IMG/VR virus record: IMGVR_UViG_3300025112_000255 | Span: 1 to 20,046 of that record | Direction: 5' to 3' (one strand) | DNA from: a virus | DNA: 20,046 bases | In this document: positions 9,255 through 17,749 of the stretch, in pieces | How the letters are laid out: each line of letters opens with the position of its first letter | Numbering within the stretch: position 1 is the stretch's first letter | The notes under the pieces: model-generated | What the model was told of the DNA's origin: nothing | Databases searched by the model: none | What the model saw: the letters and a program-made list of their open reading frames with translations, nothing else | Translations under genes and position numbers: made by a program

Positions 9255-10685
9255 CTAAATCCATGACCTTAATTCTTCTCCTAAAACTTCTGATGCTATG
9301 TTTATTTTTTTACGGAGAGCTTTTACGATTTTTTCGTCTACGGTCTCTTCACAAATCAAGTCTACATATGTTACGGATTTTTGTTGTCCAATTCTGTGTG
9401 CTCGGTCTTCTGACTGCAGTCTTTTTTCTAAGTCATATCCGTTAGAATAGTAAATAACGGTGTTTGCGGCCGTCAAAGTAATGCCATAGCCGCCCGTAGA
9501 AGGCGTTCCGACCATAAACCGACACCTAGGGTCGTCCTGAAATTTCTTTATATTAGGCTGTCTCTCATCCTGTGGAGTTAACCCATAATAATCAACCACG
9601 GAACCTGGACCATACTCTTTAACTATAGCTTTAATAATAGCATTAATATCGTATTGATAATGAGCCCAGATAATAGCTTTTCCCTCTGTTTCATCAAGTA
9701 CATTCATTAACTCATCTATTCTATTGTTAGCAATAATCTGAGTAGTGCCATCGTCTGCGGTAAAATGTCCACATGTGATTTGATGTAATCTCATTAATTG
9801 AGTTAATACATTAACGGTAGTCACTTGTTTGCCATTTAAATTAGCAAGGGCAGTTTCTTTCATTTGAAGATATAGTTTATTTTGATCAGGACTAAGTTTA
9901 ATATTTCTTTTTAAGTATATCTTTTCGGGTAAATCTAAGCAGTCTTCTTTTAATACTCTATAAGAGAATCCCTTTAATTGATCAGACAATTCTCCTAGAT
10001 TTTTAAAACCAGAAACTACTTGAACCGATCTGCCATGTAAATGCAAAGTCTTCATTTCCGCATACCTATTTCTAAATGCATAATAAGAAGTAAAGTCCAA
10101 TAACCACGGACTTAAAAAACCACATTGACTATATAAATCTAATGGATTTTTAGTGACAGGAGAACCTGTCATTATTCTTCTATATTTAGCATCTTCGGAT
10201 AATTTAAGAATATTTTTAGTTCTTTTAGCGGAAGGAGTTTTAATAGTAGTGCTTTCATCAATAGCCATTAAAGTATTATGGCAAGATAAGAATTTTTTAG
10301 CAAAGTCTACACCCTTGGTAGTACTAAAAGCTTCAACATTCATAATTAAAATATGAAGTTGTTCTTCTGGTTCGAAAAGACTGTCTAATTTTTCTTGTTG
10401 TTTTTTAGTTATATTAGGTTGCCACAATACAGCCATATTTTCAATATGGTCTGGTAAATGCGCAGGGATTTCTTGATTATACCAAGTTCCAATTACACCT
10501 TTAGGTGCAACAATTAAAGCACCATCAACTTTACCTTTATCATAAAGCATAGATAAATTATCTATTAACACTTTTGTTTTACCTGTACCCATTTCCATAA
10601 AATAGGCATAAGTTTCTCTGTTCCATGACTTTTCTAACGCGGTCATTTGATGCGCGTACGGTTTCATTTTAAATTTATATTTCAT
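9255..10685 (-). CDS. SNF2-family helicase/ATPase (superfamily 2)
   Basis: This 476-residue protein is a complete two-lobed superfamily 2 ATPase of the SNF2/DEXH type. An N-terminal YAHQ (10-13) fits the Q-like motif. Walker A is MGTGKT with Lys36. Motif Ia is LIVAPKGV (57-64), motif II is DES (Asp143-Glu144-Ser145), motif III is TGSPV (173-177). The second lobe ends in QSEDRAHRIGQQ (424-435), the SNF2 motif VI with the arginine finger region. There are no chromatin-binding extras, so it is a minimal phage version, likely acting on DNA in replication, recombination or repair. It is the only minus-strand gene in the window. The ATG follows an AAGAAG-like weak ribosome site, and a sigma70-like promoter lies about 20 bases upstream. 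Confidence 0.92.
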   Translation of the reverse strand: MKYKFKMKPYAHQMTALEKSWNRETYAYFMEMGTGKTKVLIDNLSMLYDKGKVDGALIVAPKGVIGTWYNQEIPAHLPDHIENMAVLWQPNITKKQQEKLDSLFEPEEQLHILIMNVEAFSTTKGVDFAKKFLSCHNTLMAIDESTTIKTPSAKRTKNILKLSEDAKYRRIMTGSPVTKNPLDLYSQCGFLSPWLLDFTSYYAFRNRYAEMKTLHLHGRSVQVVSGFKNLGELSDQLKGFSYRVLKEDCLDLPEKIYLKRNIKLSPDQNKLYLQMKETALANLNGKQVTTVNVLTQLMRLHQITCGHFTADDGTTQIIANNRIDELMNVLDETEGKAIIWAHYQYDINAIIKAIVKEYGPGSVVDYYGLTPQDERQPNIKKFQDDPRCRFMVGTPSTGGYGITLTAANTVIYYSNGYDLEKRLQSEDRAHRIGQQKSVTYVDLICEETVDEKIVKALRKKINIASEVLGEELRSWI

Positions 10686-10703
10686 AATTTTTCTTCTTTC
10701 TAT

Positions 10704-10739
10704 GGGTTGACATATAGTTCATCTTGCATTATATGTCAA
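10704..10739 (-). promoter_or_regulatory. Leftward sigma70-like promoter for the helicase gene
   Basis: Reading the minus strand, TTGACA (10739-10734) is followed by 17 bases and TATATG (10716-10711). That is a perfect -35 hexamer and optimal spacing with a fair -10. Initiation would fall near 10704, leaving about a 19-base leader before the ATG at 10685. It is the mirror image of the rightward promoter in the same 33 bases. Confidence 0.7.
10707..10739. repeat. Perfect inverted repeat overlapping divergent promoters
   Basis: TTGACATATA at 10707-10716 is the exact reverse complement of TATATGTCAA at 10730-10739, with 13 bases between. Each arm contains the -35 of one promoter and the -10 of the other, so the two promoters cannot both be occupied easily. 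The dyad could also be an operator for a dimeric regulator. No regulator gene is recognisable next to it. Confidence 0.85.
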
Positions 10740-10742
10740 GAC
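10707..10742 (+). promoter_or_regulatory. Rightward sigma70-like promoter, predicted leaderless start
   Basis: TTGACA at 10707-10712, a 17-base spacer and TATATG at 10730-10735 form a good sigma70-like promoter. Standard spacing puts transcription start at about 10742-10743, the ATG of the next gene. No Shine-Dalgarno sequence exists between promoter and ATG, consistent with a leaderless message. It would drive the replication module. Confidence 0.7.
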
Positions 10743-11102
10743 ATGAAAGTAGAAAATATCGTTTATGTTATACAAGAAGTTCCCGGTACTAAAGCTGGTA
10801 ATCCTAAAATTAATATTATGGGTGCAGCTAAATATGGTAAAATAAAATTTTTACTTCCGGAACTTTCTCAAATTATTTTTTCTCCAGGTCCTTTAATTTT
10901 TAAATTAAGAAAAGGTTTAAAAGATTTTAAAGAAGGAGATCATTTATTATTAACAGGTGATCCTGCAATAATAGGTGTGGCATGTTCAATAGTTTCTGAT
11001 ATTACTAATGGCAAATACAATCTATTAAAATGGGATAGACAAGAAAGTCAATATTATCCTATTGAAATTAACTTATACGAGAAAGGAGAAATTGATGATT
11101 GA
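10743..11102 (+). CDS. Conserved-type phage protein of unknown function, first gene of replication operon
   Basis: This 119-residue protein begins MKVENIVYVIQEVPGTKAGN. A longer frame exists upstream, but it would run through the divergent promoter and encode an unlike, aromatic-rich peptide, so the ATG at 10743 is preferred. The middle reads INIMGAAKYGKIKFLLPELS and later LLLTGDPAIIGVACSIVSDI, suggesting an alpha/beta fold. The end is YYPIEINLYEKGEIDD. I recall close relatives in many uncultured marine phages, always annotated as hypothetical. There is no membrane segment, and no catalytic motif that I can name. It overlaps the next gene by eight bases (ATGATTGA). It could be a replication accessory judging by its operon. 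Confidence 0.8.
   Translation: MKVENIVYVIQEVPGTKAGNPKINIMGAAKYGKIKFLLPELSQIIFSPGPLIFKLRKGLKDFKEGDHLLLTGDPAIIGVACSIVSDITNGKYNLLKWDRQESQYYPIEINLYEKGEIDD
11083..11088 (+). promoter_or_regulatory. Shine-Dalgarno AAGGAG deciding the 11095 start
   Basis: AAGGAG lies six bases before the ATG at 11095, inside the end of the preceding gene. It argues for this start rather than the in-frame ATG 33 bases upstream. Confidence 0.75.
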
Positions 11103-11643
11103 TTTTGAAAAAGACCAGGAGGACGTGTTAAAGAAAACTGATAATATACAATCTCTGGCAGACCAAGTTCAAAAACTAGACTCTTTAACTAAGAGACTTG
11201 AACTACAAGAAGACAATATAAAGAGTACAAAAAAAGAATTAGAATATTTATCTGGAGAGGTTATTCCAACAATGATGAGTGAGATGGGTTTATCCCATCT
11301 TAAACTTATGGATGGATCTTCAGTAGATGTTAAACCGAACTATAGCGCCACTATTACTATAGCAAATAGGGAAGCGGCGTTTAACTGGCTTCGAAACAAC
11401 GGCCTAGGAGATATCATTAAAAACGAAATCTCCGTTTCATTTGGTCGTAACGAAGATAACAAGGCGAGCAGTTATGCAGACCTTGCGAGGAGTCAAGGGT
11501 TAGAACCACAACAAAAGTTGAAGGTAGAGCCCATGACTCTGAAAGCGTTAGTCCGTGAGCGTATTGAGGCAGGAAAAGACATGCCAACGGAACTTTTCAA
11601 CATATTTGTTGGAAATAAAACAACAATAAAAAGGAAACAATAA
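11095..11643 (+). CDS. Phage protein with coiled-coil N-terminus, unknown function
   Basis: This 182-residue protein has a coiled-coil half at about 10-62 (leucine heptads around LDSLTKRLELQEDNIKSTKK). A compact domain follows, with LKLMDGSSVDVKPNYSATI and then FNWLRNNGLGDIIKNEISVS (about 100-119). This coil plus NWLR.NG.GD.IKNE pattern is one I recall from T7-like and siphovirus-type phage genomes near replication genes, as a domain of unknown function. The C-terminus (TLKALVRERIEAGKDMPTEL) is helical and ends in basic residues. The start at 11095 is set by AAGGAG and the eight-base overlap. The second half uses noticeably more G/C-ending codons than its neighbours. Function unknown. Confidence 0.8.
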   Translation: MIDFEKDQEDVLKKTDNIQSLADQVQKLDSLTKRLELQEDNIKSTKKELEYLSGEVIPTMMSEMGLSHLKLMDGSSVDVKPNYSATITIANREAAFNWLRNNGLGDIIKNEISVSFGRNEDNKASSYADLARSQGLEPQQKLKVEPMTLKALVRERIEAGKDMPTELFNIFVGNKTTIKRKQ

Positions 11644-11645
11644 TA

Positions 11646-12407
11646 ATGAACCAAGAAATAGCTAAAAAAGCAAATGCAGGTGCATTGGCAACGAATTTAT
11701 TCGAAGAAGATGCAAATGCTGGCTCTCAGAATATGACGCAAGAAGATCTTGCATTACCATTTCTGAAAGTCTTAGGACAATTATCTCCTGAAGTTAATGA
11801 GAGGGATGGGAAACATATTCAAGGTGCTAAACCTGGAATGATTCTCAACAGTGTCACAAACGAATTGTTTGATGGTGCAAAGGGGATAGATGTTTTACCA
11901 GTCTACTATGAGAGAAAATATGTAGAATGGAAAGACAGAGGTGAGGGTAAAGGCGCTCCAGTAGCAATTCATAATGCCGAAAGTGGTATTATTGAAACAA
12001 CTACTAGGGATAAATCATACAAAGATCGTCTACCTAATGGTAATTACCTAGAGAACACTGCAAATCATTTTGTAATTCTTTTAGGTAAGAGTCCACAAAC
12101 AGCATTGATATCTATGAAGGCTACTCAATTAAAGATTAGTCGTAAATGGAATTCAATCATGATGGGTCTTAAACTACAAGGTAAGAACGGTTTATTTACG
12201 CCGCCAACATATAGCCACATTTATAATCTAAAGACTGTTCAGATGTCTAATGACAAAGGAACATGGTTTGGATGGGAAGTGTCTAAAGTTGGACCAGTTA
12301 CAGATAAAGGTGTTTACGAAGTAGCCAAAAACTTTGCTGAAAGAGTCGGTAAGGGTGATGTTGAAGTTAAACACGGATCTGAAAACAAAGATTCAACACC
12401 GTATTAA
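11646..12407 (+). CDS. Phage protein of unknown function, candidate ssDNA-binding or replication accessory
   Basis: This 253-residue protein starts MNQEIAKKANAGALATNLFE. A conserved-looking core begins at TQEDLALPFLKVLGQLSPEV (about 31-50) and continues with GAKPGMILNSVTNELFDGAK. Beta-rich segments follow, with GIDVLPVYYERKYVEWKDR, then SMKATQLKISRKWNSIMMGL and a TWFGWEVSKVGP strand. I recall relatives in marine and enteric phages placed just ahead of primase/polymerase genes. A single-strand DNA-binding role is a plausible guess from position, the aromatic and basic content and beta-rich look, but the acidic tail typical of such proteins is absent. AAGGAA nine bases upstream supports the start. 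Confidence 0.75.
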   Translation: MNQEIAKKANAGALATNLFEEDANAGSQNMTQEDLALPFLKVLGQLSPEVNERDGKHIQGAKPGMILNSVTNELFDGAKGIDVLPVYYERKYVEWKDRGEGKGAPVAIHNAESGIIETTTRDKSYKDRLPNGNYLENTANHFVILLGKSPQTALISMKATQLKISRKWNSIMMGLKLQGKNGLFTPPTYSHIYNLKTVQMSNDKGTWFGWEVSKVGPVTDKGVYEVAKNFAERVGKGDVEVKHGSENKDSTPY

Positions 12408-12419
12408 CGAATCCTAGGT

Positions 12420-12453
12420 AGTGGGCGTCTAAGCGAGAGTGGATACGCCCACT
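12420..12453. other. GC-rich stem-loop in the gap before the primase gene
   Basis: AGTGGGCGT (12420-12428) and ACGCCCACT (12445-12453) are a perfect nine-base inverted repeat with a 16-base loop. It fills most of the 60-base gap between two same-strand genes. There is no T-tract on either strand, so it is not a standard intrinsic terminator. It may be an RNA processing or stability element, a partial attenuator or a DNA-level site. The rest of the gap holds no good promoter. Confidence 0.6.
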
Positions 12454-12467
12454 TAATAAGAAAATGT

Positions 12468-13964
12468 ATGATAGAAAAATTTAAAAATATATTTAAAGGC
12501 TTAGAAAGAGCCCATGGATGTACTAAGGTTGGTCCAAGTAATAATAACGGAGAAAAAGTTAAAGGACAATCTTTTGTGGTACGAGAATATGTAACAGATG
12601 AACTTTGGTCAAAACATTTACAAGGGACACAAAGTTTAGGAATTATTCCAATCAATGAAGAGAATCAATGTGTGTGGGGATGTGTAGATATAGATTCATA
12701 TGCAGGATTCGATCATAAAAAATTAATAGATAAAATAAAAAGTTTTAAACTACCTCTGGTGGTGTGTAGGTCAAAGAGCGGTGGCGCTCATGTGTTTCTT
12801 TTCTCAGAGACTCCCGTCGACGCAGAAAGAATGAGAGACAAACTTACAGAGATAAAGACACTACTAGGATACGGCGGATCAGAAGTCTTTCCAAAACAAA
12901 TCAGATTAAAATCAGCAGACGACACAGGAAACTTTTTAAACTTACCATACTTTAATGGTGATGATACTTTAAGATATGCATTTAAAGAAGATGGTAATGC
13001 AGCAACTTTAGAAGAATTTTATGAGATCTATAATAATGTAAAACAACTAGATGTTGGTCTCGTAAAAGTACAGAGGCCCCAATCAGAATTTTCTGATGGG
13101 CCTCCGTGCATAGAACTTATGGCAGCAAATAGTATTGAAGAAGGTGGTAGAGACAACGCATTATTTCATTACACAGTTTATGCTAAAAAGAAATGGCCAT
13201 CTGGTTGGCAAGGAAAAGTTTCTTTGTTTAATGAAAAATATGTCAAACCAATCTACGATGATGCAGGATTAAATAGAATTATAAAACAACATGAGAAAAA
13301 AGATTGGGGTTATAAATGTAATGATACTCCAATGTGTAATTTGTGTGATAAAAAATTATGTAAGAGTCGTAAGTATGGAATAGGAGATGAGATAGTATTT
13401 CCATCACTAACAGATTTACAAAAAATTAAATTAGAAAAACCTTATTATTATCTAAATGTAGATGGAGAAAGATTATATTTAGAGAATGTTAAATTTTTAA
13501 AACAACAGAATTTATTCCAAGAAGCTGTTATGGAACAGTTGGACTTTAAACCACCAACAGTTAAACCAAAAGATTGGGATATGATAATAAATCCACTGAT
13601 GAAGAATCACGAACCTGTTGAACCACCTGAAGGTGTAACAACTAATGATCAATTACAGAATCATTTAGAAGAGTTTTGTTTAAATAGACACATTGGAACT
13701 GAAATAAGTGATCTTAAACGAGGTGGTGTATGGACTGATGAAGGCTACCATCACTTTATATTTAGTAAATTCTATAATCAATTTTTAATCAGACAGAGAT
13801 GGGATGTAAATTATTCTAGAACTGCACAAATGTTAAAAGAAGTTTGCAATTGTGAAGACAAAAGAATTGGTAAAGATAGAACTTCAGTATTTAGAGTAAA
13901 ACAATTTGATCTAAAAGAAGAAGAGTATACGCAAAAAGAACTTAAACCGAAGGATGTATTCTAA
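12468..13964 (+). CDS. Archaeo-eukaryotic-type primase (Prim-Pol) with Cys cluster
   Basis: This 498-residue protein looks like a DNA primase/primase-polymerase of the AEP superfamily, closest in style to the TOTE-type primase domain. Catalytic acids are Asp74 and Asp76 in CVDIDS. The nucleotide-binding SKSGGAHVFLF gives His108, and SEVFPKQ supplies Glu139, a plausible third metal ligand. Residues about 214-275 (GRDNALFHYTVYAKKKW) resemble a primase C-terminal helical domain. Cys284, Cys290, Cys293 and Cys298 form a C-x5-C-x2-C-x4-C cluster for zinc or iron-sulfur. The last 200 residues have no Walker motif, so helicase activity must come from elsewhere. A strong hairpin lies inside the gene at 13073-13104. 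The gene follows the 12420 stem-loop and overlaps the next by TAATG. Ribosome site is weak. Confidence 0.82.
   Translation: MIEKFKNIFKGLERAHGCTKVGPSNNNGEKVKGQSFVVREYVTDELWSKHLQGTQSLGIIPINEENQCVWGCVDIDSYAGFDHKKLIDKIKSFKLPLVVCRSKSGGAHVFLFSETPVDAERMRDKLTEIKTLLGYGGSEVFPKQIRLKSADDTGNFLNLPYFNGDDTLRYAFKEDGNAATLEEFYEIYNNVKQLDVGLVKVQRPQSEFSDGPPCIELMAANSIEEGGRDNALFHYTVYAKKKWPSGWQGKVSLFNEKYVKPIYDDAGLNRIIKQHEKKDWGYKCNDTPMCNLCDKKLCKSRKYGIGDEIVFPSLTDLQKIKLEKPYYYLNVDGERLYLENVKFLKQQNLFQEAVMEQLDFKPPTVKPKDWDMIINPLMKNHEPVEPPEGVTTNDQLQNHLEEFCLNRHIGTEISDLKRGGVWTDEGYHHFIFSKFYNQFLIRQRWDVNYSRTAQMLKEVCNCEDKRIGKDRTSVFRVKQFDLKEEEYTQKELKPKDVF
13073..13104. other. Strong intragenic hairpin at the primase domain boundary
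   Basis: GAGGCCC (13073-13079) pairs with GGGCCTC (13098-13104), and ATCAGAA (13082-13088) pairs with TTCTGAT (13091-13097). The stem has 14 base pairs, a two-base bulge (CA at 13080-13081) and a minimal loop. It encodes the linker between the primase catalytic domain and the C-terminal part. It is the strongest fold I found in the window and no T-tract follows. Confidence 0.75.
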
Positions 13965-14164
13965 TGAAACTAAGATGTTTTATAGAAAGCTTTATTGATG
14001 TAGGGAGTGGATTAATTTTAGCAATCTTAATTCAGTTATATATATTTCCATTCTTTGGATTATACCCAACGATCTGGGATAGCTTACATATTGCATTAAT
14101 ATTTACTGCAGTTTCAATTATTAGATCATCAATATGGAGACATTTTTTTAGGAGATATAGATGA
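13964..14164 (+). CDS. Small two-helix membrane protein (DUF7220-like)
   Basis: This 66-residue protein has two predicted membrane segments. The first is at about 12-34 (VGSGLILAILIQLYIFPFFG) and the second at about 42-55 (IALIFTAVSIIRSSIW), followed by a basic RHFFRRYR tail. The I(E/D)S..D...G....L.QL.IFP.FG...AL.FT..SI.RS pattern is one I recall from a widespread phage family of unknown function, which I believe is DUF7220. Positive-inside reasoning puts the basic C-terminus in the cytoplasm. It sits between primase and helicase with a TAATG overlap upstream and an ATGA overlap downstream, so it is made along with the replisome. A role tethering replication to the membrane is only a guess. 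Confidence 0.75.
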   Translation: MKLRCFIESFIDVGSGLILAILIQLYIFPFFGLYPTIWDSLHIALIFTAVSIIRSSIWRHFFRRYR

Positions 14165-15654
14165 AAACAATAGTATTAGGACCACCAGGTACAGGAAAAA
14201 CAACTACACTCTTAAATAAAGTAGATAGTTATTTAAAAGAAACTGACCCAGATAAAATAGGTTACTTTGCTTTCACTCAAAAAGCTGCATACGAAGCAAG
14301 AGACAGAGCAATGAAACAATTTAATTATACAGAAGATGATCTTCCATACTTTAGAACTTTACACTCACTAGCATTTAAAAAACTTGGACTTAAAAAAGAT
14401 CAAGTAATGCAACCAAGACACTACAGAGACCTTGGGAAAAAGCTAGGGTTTCCAGTAGCTTACGCCGAACATCAAGAGGATCATGGATTCTTTACATCTG
14501 ATAGTGAGTACCTACAAATAATTAATTTAGCAAAACTTAGAAATATAACTCCAGATCAACAATACGAACTTCAAGAACATACTCAAGATTTAGAGAGAAA
14601 CAAACTTACTATTATATCTAATGAGTTGGAAAGATATAAAAAAGAATATGGTCTAATAGATTTTAATGACATGATTTTAAATTTTATAAAATCAGATAAG
14701 TCTCCAAACTTTGATGTTGTATTCATTGATGAAGCTCAAGATTTATCTTCAATGCAGTGGGACATGACAAAAACTATTTGGAATAAAGCACAAGATACTT
14801 TTATTGCGGGAGACGATGACCAGGCTATTTTTAAATGGGCTGGTGCTGATGTAGATTCTTTTATAGCCTTACAAGATCAAATGATAAATCTTCCACTTAT
14901 TCAATCACATAGAATACCAATGAAAGTTCATAGACTGGCTATGGGAATTATAAATAGAATTAGAAATAGAATAGATAAAAATTGGAAACCTAAAACTAAT
15001 GAAGGAAGTTTACACAGACATTTTGATATAGAATCAATTAATATGTCCTCTGGCGAATGGTTGATACTATCTAGAACTAAATACATGCTTAAAGAAATAG
15101 AAGATACTTTGTATCGTAAAGGTTTGTATTATGAGAATAAATATAAAAAAAGTTATGAGAAAGATATGCAAGAAGCAGTCACAGACTGGGAACATTTAAG
15201 ACAAGGACAATTAATGTCTTATAAACAAATTGAAAAGATTTATGGTTACATGAATCCTGAACATGTAGATAAAAATAAATTAAAAGGAATGGTGAAAGAA
15301 TCCTTCTATGGTATTGACGCATTGACCAAGGACCACGGATTAAAAACTAACAAAGTTTGGTTTGAAGCTTTTAATGAAGCGGGTCAACAACGAGTAAATT
15401 ATTTAAGAAAGATGAGAGCGAATGGTGAGAAATTAAATAAACCACCAAGAATAAAATTATCTACGATTCACGCCGCTAAAGGGGGTGAATGTGAAAACGT
15501 TGTGTTGTTAACTGATCAAACAAAAACAACTATGAATACATATGAAAAGAATCCTGATGATGAAAATAGATTATACTACGTAGGTGCAACACGAACAAAA
15601 GAAAACTTACATATAATAGAACCAAAACATCCAGAAAAAGGATTTATAATATGA
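14161..15654 (+). CDS. UvrD/Rep-type superfamily 1 DNA helicase
   Basis: This 497-residue ATP-dependent helicase has every main superfamily 1A motif. Walker A is GPPGTGKTT with Lys13. Motif Ia is FTQKAAYEARDRA. Motif II is IDEAQD (Asp190-Asp194). Motif III is GDDDQAIFKWAG (217-228). A SHRIP motif IV follows. Motif V is STIHAAKGGE (434-443) and motif VI is YVGATRTKENL with Arg478. It is shorter than bacterial UvrD (about 720 residues), so the 1B/2B accessory domains are reduced, as in other phage members. AGGAGA five bases upstream supports the start. With no hexameric helicase visible nearby, it is a candidate for unwinding at the phage fork, though a repair or recombination role is possible. 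Confidence 0.93.
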   Translation: MKTIVLGPPGTGKTTTLLNKVDSYLKETDPDKIGYFAFTQKAAYEARDRAMKQFNYTEDDLPYFRTLHSLAFKKLGLKKDQVMQPRHYRDLGKKLGFPVAYAEHQEDHGFFTSDSEYLQIINLAKLRNITPDQQYELQEHTQDLERNKLTIISNELERYKKEYGLIDFNDMILNFIKSDKSPNFDVVFIDEAQDLSSMQWDMTKTIWNKAQDTFIAGDDDQAIFKWAGADVDSFIALQDQMINLPLIQSHRIPMKVHRLAMGIINRIRNRIDKNWKPKTNEGSLHRHFDIESINMSSGEWLILSRTKYMLKEIEDTLYRKGLYYENKYKKSYEKDMQEAVTDWEHLRQGQLMSYKQIEKIYGYMNPEHVDKNKLKGMVKESFYGIDALTKDHGLKTNKVWFEAFNEAGQQRVNYLRKMRANGEKLNKPPRIKLSTIHAAKGGECENVVLLTDQTKTTMNTYEKNPDDENRLYYVGATRTKENLHIIEPKHPEKGFII

Positions 15655-15905
15655 AAGATATATACACAAGACAAGTGGGCGGAAACCATTATAAATCAAT
15701 GGTTATTCAGCCATCAGAATTTATAAATAAAAATAATATTCCTTTTGCTGAAGGCAATGCAATTAAATATTTATGTAGACACAAACAGAAGAATCAAAAA
15801 CAAGATTTGGAAAAAGCAATTCATTATTGTCAAATGGCAATTGAACGTGATTACCCAGATAAACAAGAAACAAATAAACATAACTCATGGGGAATATTAA
15901 AATGA
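15651..15905 (+). CDS. DUF3310-type phage protein
   Basis: This 84-residue protein matches the DUF3310 family, common in phage replication/nucleotide gene clusters. The N-terminal GGNHY motif is at 10-14, QPSEFI follows at 20-25, and the hallmark GNAIKYLCRHKQKN is at 35-48, followed by a DLEKAIHY helix. The family is often called a nucleotide kinase-like protein in annotation, but I see no Walker motif and the biochemical role is unproven. The start overlaps the helicase stop (ATGA) and AAGGA lies eight bases upstream. It overlaps the polymerase gene in the same way, which ties it to replication. Confidence 0.88.
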   Translation: MKDIYTRQVGGNHYKSMVIQPSEFINKNNIPFAEGNAIKYLCRHKQKNQKQDLEKAIHYCQMAIERDYPDKQETNKHNSWGILK

Positions 15906-17749
15906 TACAAGTACCACTATTTAAACCACAAACTGAATGGCTACCGCCAGAAGAATTTCCAGATCTATCAAAATATGATGAGATCGCAATCGACTTAGAA
16001 ACCAAAGACCCTAACCTAACTAAAATGGGATCAGGATCAGTAGCCAAGAATGGTGACGTTGTGGGAATAGCTGTCGCTGTTAAAGACTGGTCGGGTTATT
16101 ATCCAATCGCCCATGAAGGTGGTGGTAATTTAGATCGTAAAAAAGTTTTAAAATGGTTCCAAGGTGTGTTGAGCACTTCAGCCATGAAAATATTTCACAA
16201 CGCCATGTACGACGTATGTTGGATAAGAGCGCTCGGTTTAAGTATTAACGGAAAAATTGTAGACACGATGATTGCATCGGCCCTAGTTGATGAGAATCAA
16301 ATGCGTTATGACTTAAACAACTGTTCAAAAAGATACACTGGAAAAGGAAAAAATGAAACAGAATTATATCAAGCTGCAAAAGATTGGGGTGTTGACGCCA
16401 AGGCAGAAATGTATAAACTACCTGCCATTTATGTTGGCGCTTATGCAGAAAAAGATGCTGAAATAACTTATGAGCTTTGGCAAGAATTAAAAAAAGAAAT
16501 TATCAATCAAGATTTAAAATCTATCTTCCAACTAGAAACTGACTTATTCCCCTGCCTCGTAGATATGCGCTTCTTAGGAGTTCGTGTAGATATTGAAGGA
16601 GCCCACAAATTAAAAGAAGAGTTAAGTAAAGAAGAAAAAGAATGCCTATTAAAAGTAAAAAAAGAAACATCAGTAGATGTCCAAATATGGGCTGCGAGAT
16701 CAATCGCTCAAGTTTTTGAAAAACTTCACCTACCATTCGACCGCACTGAAAAAACAAATTCTCCATCATTTACTAAAAACTTTTTGCAGAATCACGCCCA
16801 CCCACTCGTGAAACTAATAGCCCGCGCTCGTGAAATAAACAAAGCGCATACCACATTTATTGATACCATAATAAAACATAATCATAAAGGGAGAATACAT
16901 GCTGAAATTAACCAACTAAGAGGAGATAATGGCGGAACAGTAACTGGAAGGTTTAGTTATTCTAATCCTAATCTCCAGCAAATTCCAGCTAGAAACAAGG
17001 AACTTGGACCACGGATTAGGTCCTTATTTGTGCCCGAGGAAGGCCATACATGGGGTTGTTTTGACTATTCCCAGCAAGAGCCTAGGCTGGTAGTGCATTA
17101 TGCCTCTTTACAGAATCTCTATGGAGTGAACGAAGTATTGGACTCGTATAATGAGGGCGATGCCGATTTTCATACTATCGTTGCAGACATGGCAGAGATA
17201 CCTAGATCACAGGCCAAGACTATAAACCTTGGTCTGTTCTATGGTATGGGAAAAAATAAATTACAAGCTGAACTTGGAGTCTCTAAAGAAAAAGCTGAAG
17301 ATCTTTTTAAACAATATCATAACAAAGTTCCATTTGTAAAACAGTTGATGGACAATGTTATGTATAGAGCACAAGACTCAGGTAAGATTAGAACTTTACT
17401 TGGAAGACTTTGTCGGTTCCATCTATGGGAACCAAATCAGTTTGGAATTCATAAAGCCTTGTCACACGAAGCAGCGCTCGCGGAACACGGACCAGGGATC
17501 AAACGTGCTTACACTTACAAAGCTTTGAATAAATTAATTCAAGGTAGTGCAGCAGATATGACAAAAAAAGCAATGTTAGAACTTTATAAAGAAGGAATCA
17601 CCCCGCACATACAAGTTCATGATGAATTAGATATCTCTGTCAACAACAATTCTGACAAAATAAAAGAGATAATGGAAGGTGCAGTTACACTTGAAGTTCC
17701 TAACAAAGTAGACTATGAATCCGGGCCAAATTGGGGTACAATAGAATAA
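15902..17749 (+). CDS. polA: DNA polymerase I (family A) with 3'-5' exonuclease
   Basis: This is a 615-residue replicative-type family A polymerase. Exonuclease motifs are complete: Asp31 and Glu33 in IDLET, Asp104 in FHNAMYD, and Tyr181/Asp185 in YAEKD, so proofreading is expected. TVTGRFS and NPNLQQIP precede polymerase motif A DYSQQEPR (Asp388). Motif B runs R435-x3-K439-x3-L443-x3-Y447, placing Leu where E. coli Pol I has Phe762. Motif C is VHDE (His573-Asp574-Glu575). There is no 5' nuclease domain, as usual for phages. An in-frame ATG exists at 15887, but the ATG at 15902 overlaps the previous stop as ATGA and has GGGGA upstream, so it is preferred. It ends the replication operon. Confidence 0.94.
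   Translation: MIQVPLFKPQTEWLPPEEFPDLSKYDEIAIDLETKDPNLTKMGSGSVAKNGDVVGIAVAVKDWSGYYPIAHEGGGNLDRKKVLKWFQGVLSTSAMKIFHNAMYDVCWIRALGLSINGKIVDTMIASALVDENQMRYDLNNCSKRYTGKGKNETELYQAAKDWGVDAKAEMYKLPAIYVGAYAEKDAEITYELWQELKKEIINQDLKSIFQLETDLFPCLVDMRFLGVRVDIEGAHKLKEELSKEEKECLLKVKKETSVDVQIWAARSIAQVFEKLHLPFDRTEKTNSPSFTKNFLQNHAHPLVKLIARAREINKAHTTFIDTIIKHNHKGRIHAEINQLRGDNGGTVTGRFSYSNPNLQQIPARNKELGPRIRSLFVPEEGHTWGCFDYSQQEPRLVVHYASLQNLYGVNEVLDSYNEGDADFHTIVADMAEIPRSQAKTINLGLFYGMGKNKLQAELGVSKEKAEDLFKQYHNKVPFVKQLMDNVMYRAQDSGKIRTLLGRLCRFHLWEPNQFGIHKALSHEAALAEHGPGIKRAYTYKALNKLIQGSAADMTKKAMLELYKEGITPHIQVHDELDISVNNNSDKIKEIMEGAVTLEVPNKVDYESGPNWGTIE

Follow-up and report, generated by a model that had tools for sequence, protein, structure and literature searches.

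A conserved 33-bp dyad between a SNF2-type helicase gene and viral replication genes: a probable pair of interlocked divergent promoters with known precedents

Introduction

The promoters of bioA and bioB in E. coli lie in a symmetric stretch of DNA, and bioO is the operator of BirA. They represent one of five divergent overlapping promoter pairs studied in PMC12825309. In pLS20 the two divergent promoters Pc and Pr are interlocked, the −10 box of Pr having been inferred to lie at the −35 box of Pc and its −35 box at the −10 box of Pc (PMC4207663). Steric hindrance prevents interlocked promoters from being occupied together (PMC12825309, PMC4207663), and for the bidirectional promoters of E. 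coli competition was described solely under strong activation of one direction (PMC12825309). A related class shares a single −10 box, around which the divergent starts are 7–25 bp apart (PMC12825309, PMC10268837).

Here we describe a 33-bp dyad from a 20-kb viral record (20,046 nucleotides; this whole stretch is called the window below), which is located between a helicase gene and a divergent run of replication genes. The HTVC023P-type pelagiphages possess the same helicase/replication junction, with HTVC023P and HTVC027P being without the dyad, and promoters are not mentioned for these phages in PMC9599517 or PMC12753301.

Results and Discussion

The nearest phage records to the window are psg01, HTVC027P and HTVC023P, with which part of the query shares about 67–73% DNA identity, and as two of these three phages infect Pelagibacter we infer a SAR11 host. 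The earlier note on this DNA was right in naming the SNF2 helicase as the only plausible minus-strand gene of the window and in placing the replication genes rightward; helicase and first rightward gene are separated by 57 bp (Table 1).

Table 1: Features of the helicase/replication junction in the window.
Feature	Position	Strand	Basis
SNF2-type helicase gene	9255–10685	−	Pfam PF00176 and PF00271, PHROG 62
Predicted 18-nt helicase leader AUAGAAAGAAGAAAAAUU with purine-rich ribosome-binding stretch	10686–10703	−	sequence; plus-strand CTTTC at most 6 nt from the dyad in 67/69 relatives
Predicted leftward transcription start, A	10703	−	geometry, 7 nt past the −10
Dyad left arm TTGACATATA	10707–10716		exact reverse complement of 10730–10739
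Rightward promoter, −35 box TTGACA	10707–10712	+	sequence; kept in relatives
Leftward promoter, −10 position TATATG, spacer 17 nt	10711–10716	−	in relatives TATATT, TATCTT, TATGTT and others
Dyad right arm TATATGTCAA	10730–10739		TATATTGTCAA or TATATGTCAA in 61/69 distinct relatives
Rightward promoter, −10 position TATATG, spacer 17 nt	10730–10735	+	TATATT there in most relatives
Leftward (helicase) promoter, −35 box TTGACA	10734–10739	−	sequence; kept in relatives
Predicted rightward transcription start, A of ATG (10742 also possible)	10743	+	7 nt past the −10; ATG at that offset in 55/69 distinct relatives
First rightward gene, Pam3_gp32 family PF23992	10743–11102	+	family match; predicted structure
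GAAAG immediately following the initial bases of the ATG, mirroring CTTTC at 10696–10700	10745–10749	+	3–8 nt from the dyad in 69/69 distinct relatives
Remaining rightward replication run: Pam3_gp33-like, Pam3_gp34-like, primase, DUF7220, helicase (PHROG 1967), DUF3310, DNA polymerase	11095–17749	+	family matches

Relatives of the first rightward gene (Pam3_gp32, PF23992) are found in 96 phage records. A comparison of its product by sequence with solved structures gave no match; the AlphaFold model is good (mean pLDDT 87.5), and structural searches with it led almost exclusively to CARF/SAVED proteins and ring nucleases as best matches. With Foldseek the best E value was 3e-3 at a TMq of 0.4–0.5, and with VIA-align the best match reached a Z of 7.6 (rmsd 4.0 over 107 residues), a value below 8 that may reflect only a common arrangement. 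The consistency of the CARF/SAVED matches suggests that the modelled protein might be a cyclic-oligonucleotide-binding early protein, with possible relevance to CBASS or type III CRISPR. The primase (12468–13964) matches the AEP-TOTE primase domain PF22548, which is named after the TOTE conflict systems.

Letters and coordinates of the dyad had been noted correctly: a script check confirmed that TTGACATATA and TATATGTCAA are exact reverse complements with 13 nt between them and 33 bp in total, while an inverted-repeat tool did not have the dyad among its 25 longest repeats. A 10-bp inverted repeat alone is nothing unusual for DNA of this composition, with three perfect repeats observed within 60 nt and about 2.6 expected. 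Among 100 order-2 random windows none contained the spaced motif TTGACA-N21-TGTCAA, and among 400 random windows none had two TTGACA promoters interlocked in antiparallel orientation; the stronger argument against chance is the conservation in relatives described below.

Each arm contains one TTGACA and the −10 position of the opposite promoter, and the spacing is 17 nt in both directions, as had been claimed. Two divergent −35/−10 sets with proper spacing are therefore present on the same DNA, with the restriction that both −10 hexamers of the window (TATATG) match the consensus at only 4/6 positions and are without the final T. As the −10 boxes reach only 4/6, a sigma70 scan of the window listed neither of the two promoters. 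A TATATG −10 box is weak by E. coli standards, and it is credible that it is tolerated in Alphaproteobacteria. In four surveyed Alphaproteobacteria the majority of sigma70 promoters is without the −7T, and in the surveyed bacteria 17 bp is the commonest spacer and 6 bp the commonest distance between −10 and start (PMC8407463); SAR11 is not among the bacteria of this survey and the preference of the host here is thus an extrapolation. A literature search for a SAR11 promoter map or start sites found none that was useful.

A polymerase bound in the rightward direction would begin transcription with the A of the ATG at 10743 or with a base adjacent to it, giving a leaderless mRNA of the replication run, and this prediction is based on the ATG being located 7 nt after the −10 in most relatives. 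Such mRNAs without a leader have been described in Alphaproteobacteria (PMC7566282). In the leftward direction the polymerase would start near 10703 and produce a helicase mRNA with a short leader, in which AGAAAG is present. A quasi-palindrome reaches past the dyad (10690–10756), with the CTTTC on the helicase side mirroring the GAAAG on the replication side, and both predicted transcripts would therefore have similar purine-rich beginnings. This extended region folds at −25 kcal/mol with a z of −7, and none of 200 shuffles was as stable.

For the analysis of close relatives we used loci found by the helicase protein alone together with the window, which resulted in 70 distinct junctions of sufficient length. 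TTGAC...GTCAA is present between both genes in 69 of them, with a dyad length of 34 bp in 40, 33 bp in 21 and 37 bp in 8 junctions. The −10 of each relative was taken as the best hexamer at spacers of 16–18, meaning that the spacer range in the following numbers is given by construction and that the free-gap scan described below is the real test. The rightward −10 is nearly invariant, being TATATT with spacer 17 (40 junctions) or 16 (13), TATATG with spacer 17 (11) and TATGAT or TATGTT with spacer 18 (5). On the helicase side TATATT, TATATG, TATCTT, TATATA, TATAAG, TATGTT and a few others were found, with spacer 17 in 63 and spacer 16 in 6 junctions. This −10 thus drifts and breaks the symmetry; both −35 boxes are fixed. 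The first rightward ATG follows the −10 after 7 nt in 55 junctions, after 6 nt in 7, after 8 nt in 5 and after 21–22 nt in 2. The latter two (L022 and L030) have no ATG at the fixed offset and keep the GAAAG, possibly as a ribosome-binding site for the later ATG.

Perfect arms over 10–12 bp are present in 36 of the 69 distinct relatives and absent in 33. Among the 34-bp elements position 8 of the left arm pairs with its mirror position in 25 of 40 cases and mismatches in 15. This position is identical to position 4 of the helicase −10, the sole variable position of this box in the 34-bp elements and one at which sigma70 is tolerant. The arm types AA/AA and AT/AT change jointly, with one mixed case (L033), and the helicase tree shows between three (supported branches) and five changes of type; with only three independent pairs on supported branches, this co-change is too small a sample for significance. 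Transfer of the element in one piece is a possibility. It is the promoter geometry that is conserved and not a rigid palindrome.

Exact-arm scans of IMG/VR, with the gap left free over seven sizes, gave at least 233 elements; these scans select perfect arms, and we therefore took gap length and gene context from them and no rates of conservation. Among the matches listed, a helicase homologue starts within 150 nt of the dyad and points away from it in 227 of 233. The other six comprise two without a helicase match and with the first rightward gene present, one (L238) having both genes and failing the distance test, and three from unrelated viruses. Among the matches listed, distinct elements with TTGACATATA are 33 bp long in 73 of 74 cases and those with TTGACAATATA are 34 bp long in 82 of 87, and both combinations result in 17-bp spacers in both directions. 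As the longer arm together with the longer total length keeps 17 bp both ways, the spacing between −35 and −10 appears to be held. Layout and spacing are accordingly conserved features of this junction in the close relatives.

The exact window-type 33-bp dyad was also found in the three unrelated contigs (L123:3387–3419, L125:5343–5375 and L128:1976–2008), flanked by divergent ORFs in each of them; L123 had no match to a phage record. Apparently these are independent uses of the same layout.

Three close relatives (L054, L055 and L056) have an identical junction, and here the rightward promoter boxes, −35 as well as −10, have been lost from the original site. Their helicase promoter (TTGACA-17-TATATT) is intact and a separate rightward TTGACA-16-TATATT is located downstream, with 7 nt between its end and the ATG. 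The two promoter functions can therefore exist apart. With regard to the question whether relatives conserve only one arm, these three indeed keep just one promoter at the original site, against the dyad in all other distinct close junctions.

Beyond the close relatives the picture is more diverse. In the psg01 clade TTGAC...GTCAA is present in 74 of 80 loci, usually with 37 bp, where TATAAT at a spacer of 19 gives the best match leftward and the rightward −10 is weak; the complete psg01 genome, the one complete genome with the dyad among the phages compared here, has a single copy of it. None of the 77 loci of the HTVC027P clade contains the dyad, and in HTVC027P itself helicase and gp01 are still divergent. 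Outside of the close clade, the counter-evidence named by the earlier note (absence of the dyad with both genes still divergent) is thus found in part. In 49 of 54 distinct junctions of the HTVC027P clade we found CTTTCT-N18-20-(G/A)AAAG around a TATATA-type core, which is apparently a promoter pair with a shared −10. The CTTTC...GAAAG of the window hence persists in this clade without the TTGACA arms. HTVC023P has neither the dyad nor the HTVC027P-type element. The published RNA-seq data, BioProject PRJNA1253180, are from HTVC027P, a phage without the dyad.

Taken together, the 33-bp dyad is most probably an interlocked pair of divergent sigma70-type promoters that is read by the RNA polymerase of the host, presumably SAR11. 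The presence of two overlapping promoters in opposite directions is well supported at the sequence level by the 17-bp spacer being kept as the arm length changes, by the start codon 6–8 nt from the −10 and by the separation in L054–L056. Each arm would be a composite serving as −35 for one direction and as −10 for the other. Both promoter sites are located on the same DNA, which would leave room for one polymerase at a time. The two directions would therefore compete, which is plausible given the consensus −35 boxes on both sides, and the ratio of helicase to replication transcripts would then depend on how strong the two −10 boxes are relative to each other. We infer the activity of both promoters, their start sites, the use of the host sigma70 and the competition. 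Setting of a ratio is plausible, given the drift of the −10 on the helicase side at constant −35 boxes in both directions. The proposed function as a switch found no support, since neither a regulator nor a feedback was found: no recognised repressor is among the genes near the junction that have a family match, several of them having no assigned function. Real competition needs regulated activation of one direction (PMC12825309, PMC4207663), and a switch needs differential regulation (PMC4207663). Counting against the promoter reading are the −10 boxes of the window with their 4/6 matches, which the scan misses, the extrapolated preference of a host that is itself deduced from relatives, the weak rightward −10 together with the leftward spacer of 19 in the psg01 clade, HTVC023P being without the element, and the co-switching of the arms, which is more than plain sigma70 promoters require. 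The latter could result from whole-element transfer or from the palindrome being corrected by template switching. The boldest version, a regulator-free two-way promoter with selected symmetry in which steric competition alone fixes the helicase-to-replisome ratio and which was rebuilt in three architectures at this junction across the phage group, we regard as unlikely.

A serious possibility is that both promoters are real and that their symmetry is a by-product of template-switch repair or whole-element transfer with negligible competition between polymerases. As it accepts the two promoters and disputes only their regulatory meaning, its probability overlaps with that of the interlocked pair. 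The co-switching arms and the junction being a longer quasi-palindrome fit such an origin, as does the finding that published bidirectional promoters compete little at basal activity (PMC12825309); both −35 boxes being perfect consensus argues against it, as their occupancy may exceed that of the weak E. coli examples. We consider it quite improbable that the dyad is mainly an operator. In this case a dimer of a regulator, encoded by phage or host, would bind to both arms, thereby repressing the two promoters or balancing them, for which BirA at bioO in E. coli would be a precedent. Arms identical over 10–12 bp in 36 of 69 relatives are beyond what a promoter needs, and they change jointly 3–5 times on the helicase tree with the one mixed case L033. 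Bacterial exact TTGACAATATA dyads are moreover mostly located in one-directional upstream regions, some adjoining HTH-repressor-like genes or holding CsoR-like inner repeats by eye, and therefore the letters of the dyad can belong to operators. However, the distance from TTGACA to TGTCAA, constant within each arm type, is 21, 22 or 25 bp in different relatives, which is unlikely for one rigid dimer, and the symmetry is broken in many relatives (for example at position 8 in 15 of the 40 34-bp elements). Only one copy is present in the complete psg01 genome, L054 does without the dyad, no exact AA-type dyad among 84,980 genomes came from a record named SAR11, and the first rightward product is modelled as alpha/beta and not as a plain HTH protein. 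The operator suggested by the earlier note is weakened by these findings.

That only one direction is a true promoter and the other match is incidental would explain why the rightward −10 is nearly invariant and the leftward one drifts, yet both TTGACA boxes persist, L054 keeps the full leftward promoter after having lost the rightward one there, and the helicase has an upstream gap of just 57 bp, making this very unlikely. Even less probable is an RNA or DNA hairpin acting as terminator, cruciform or origin. The stable fold of the extended region would agree with it, but the predicted transcripts begin outside of the stem, position 8 of the left arm varies without compensation and the HTVC027P-clade junction is without a TTGACA stem. 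There was no terminator call at the dyad and nothing above the gathering score in an Rfam search of the junction; the hairpin or terminator reading was rejected.

The scan of the 84,980 genomes for the exact AA-type dyad gave 10 matches, most of them one-directional and resembling operator-bearing promoters, and as none is from a record named SAR11 a host origin of the motif was rejected. Bacterial chromosomal TTGACAATATA dyads (L325:486–519, L330:2516–2549, L327:7602–7633 and L328:1159–1190) are located upstream of genes resembling HTH regulators or enclose ATACCC/GGGTAT repeats that by eye resemble CsoR operators.

Conclusion

In summary, the layout of the dyad is conserved in close relatives and has known precedents. 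As the HTVC023P-type pelagiphages are widespread, it is of more general relevance that the junction predicts two start sites and a leaderless replication mRNA. The same gene pair moreover offers a natural series of interlocked promoters, a wider dyad, an apparent shared −10 and two separated promoters, which could be used to test the regulatory use of polymerase competition, a question raised by recent work in E. coli. Like bioA/bioB the window has divergent overlapping promoters in a symmetric stretch, and it differs in that BirA binds bioO while no binder is known here. With the shared −10 bidirectional promoters of E. coli and Salmonella it would have in common that one short sequence serves two polymerase orientations without simultaneous binding (PMC12825309, PMC10268837). 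Judged from the predicted starts, 10703 and 10743 with a distance of 40 bp, and from the two −10 boxes (10711–10716 and 10730–10735), which do not overlap, it does not belong to this class; the HTVC027P-clade junction probably resembles the shared −10 type more. The interlocked geometry itself is not new, because the boxes of Pr and Pc in pLS20 have been inferred to coincide, and as in pLS20 divergent promoters on the same DNA would allow occupancy by a single polymerase (PMC4207663). The difference is that pLS20 combines a strong Pc with a weak Pr needing the regulator Rco, operators and looping (PMC4207663), whereas here, where no regulator is known, both −35 boxes are consensus and the arms are mirror images.
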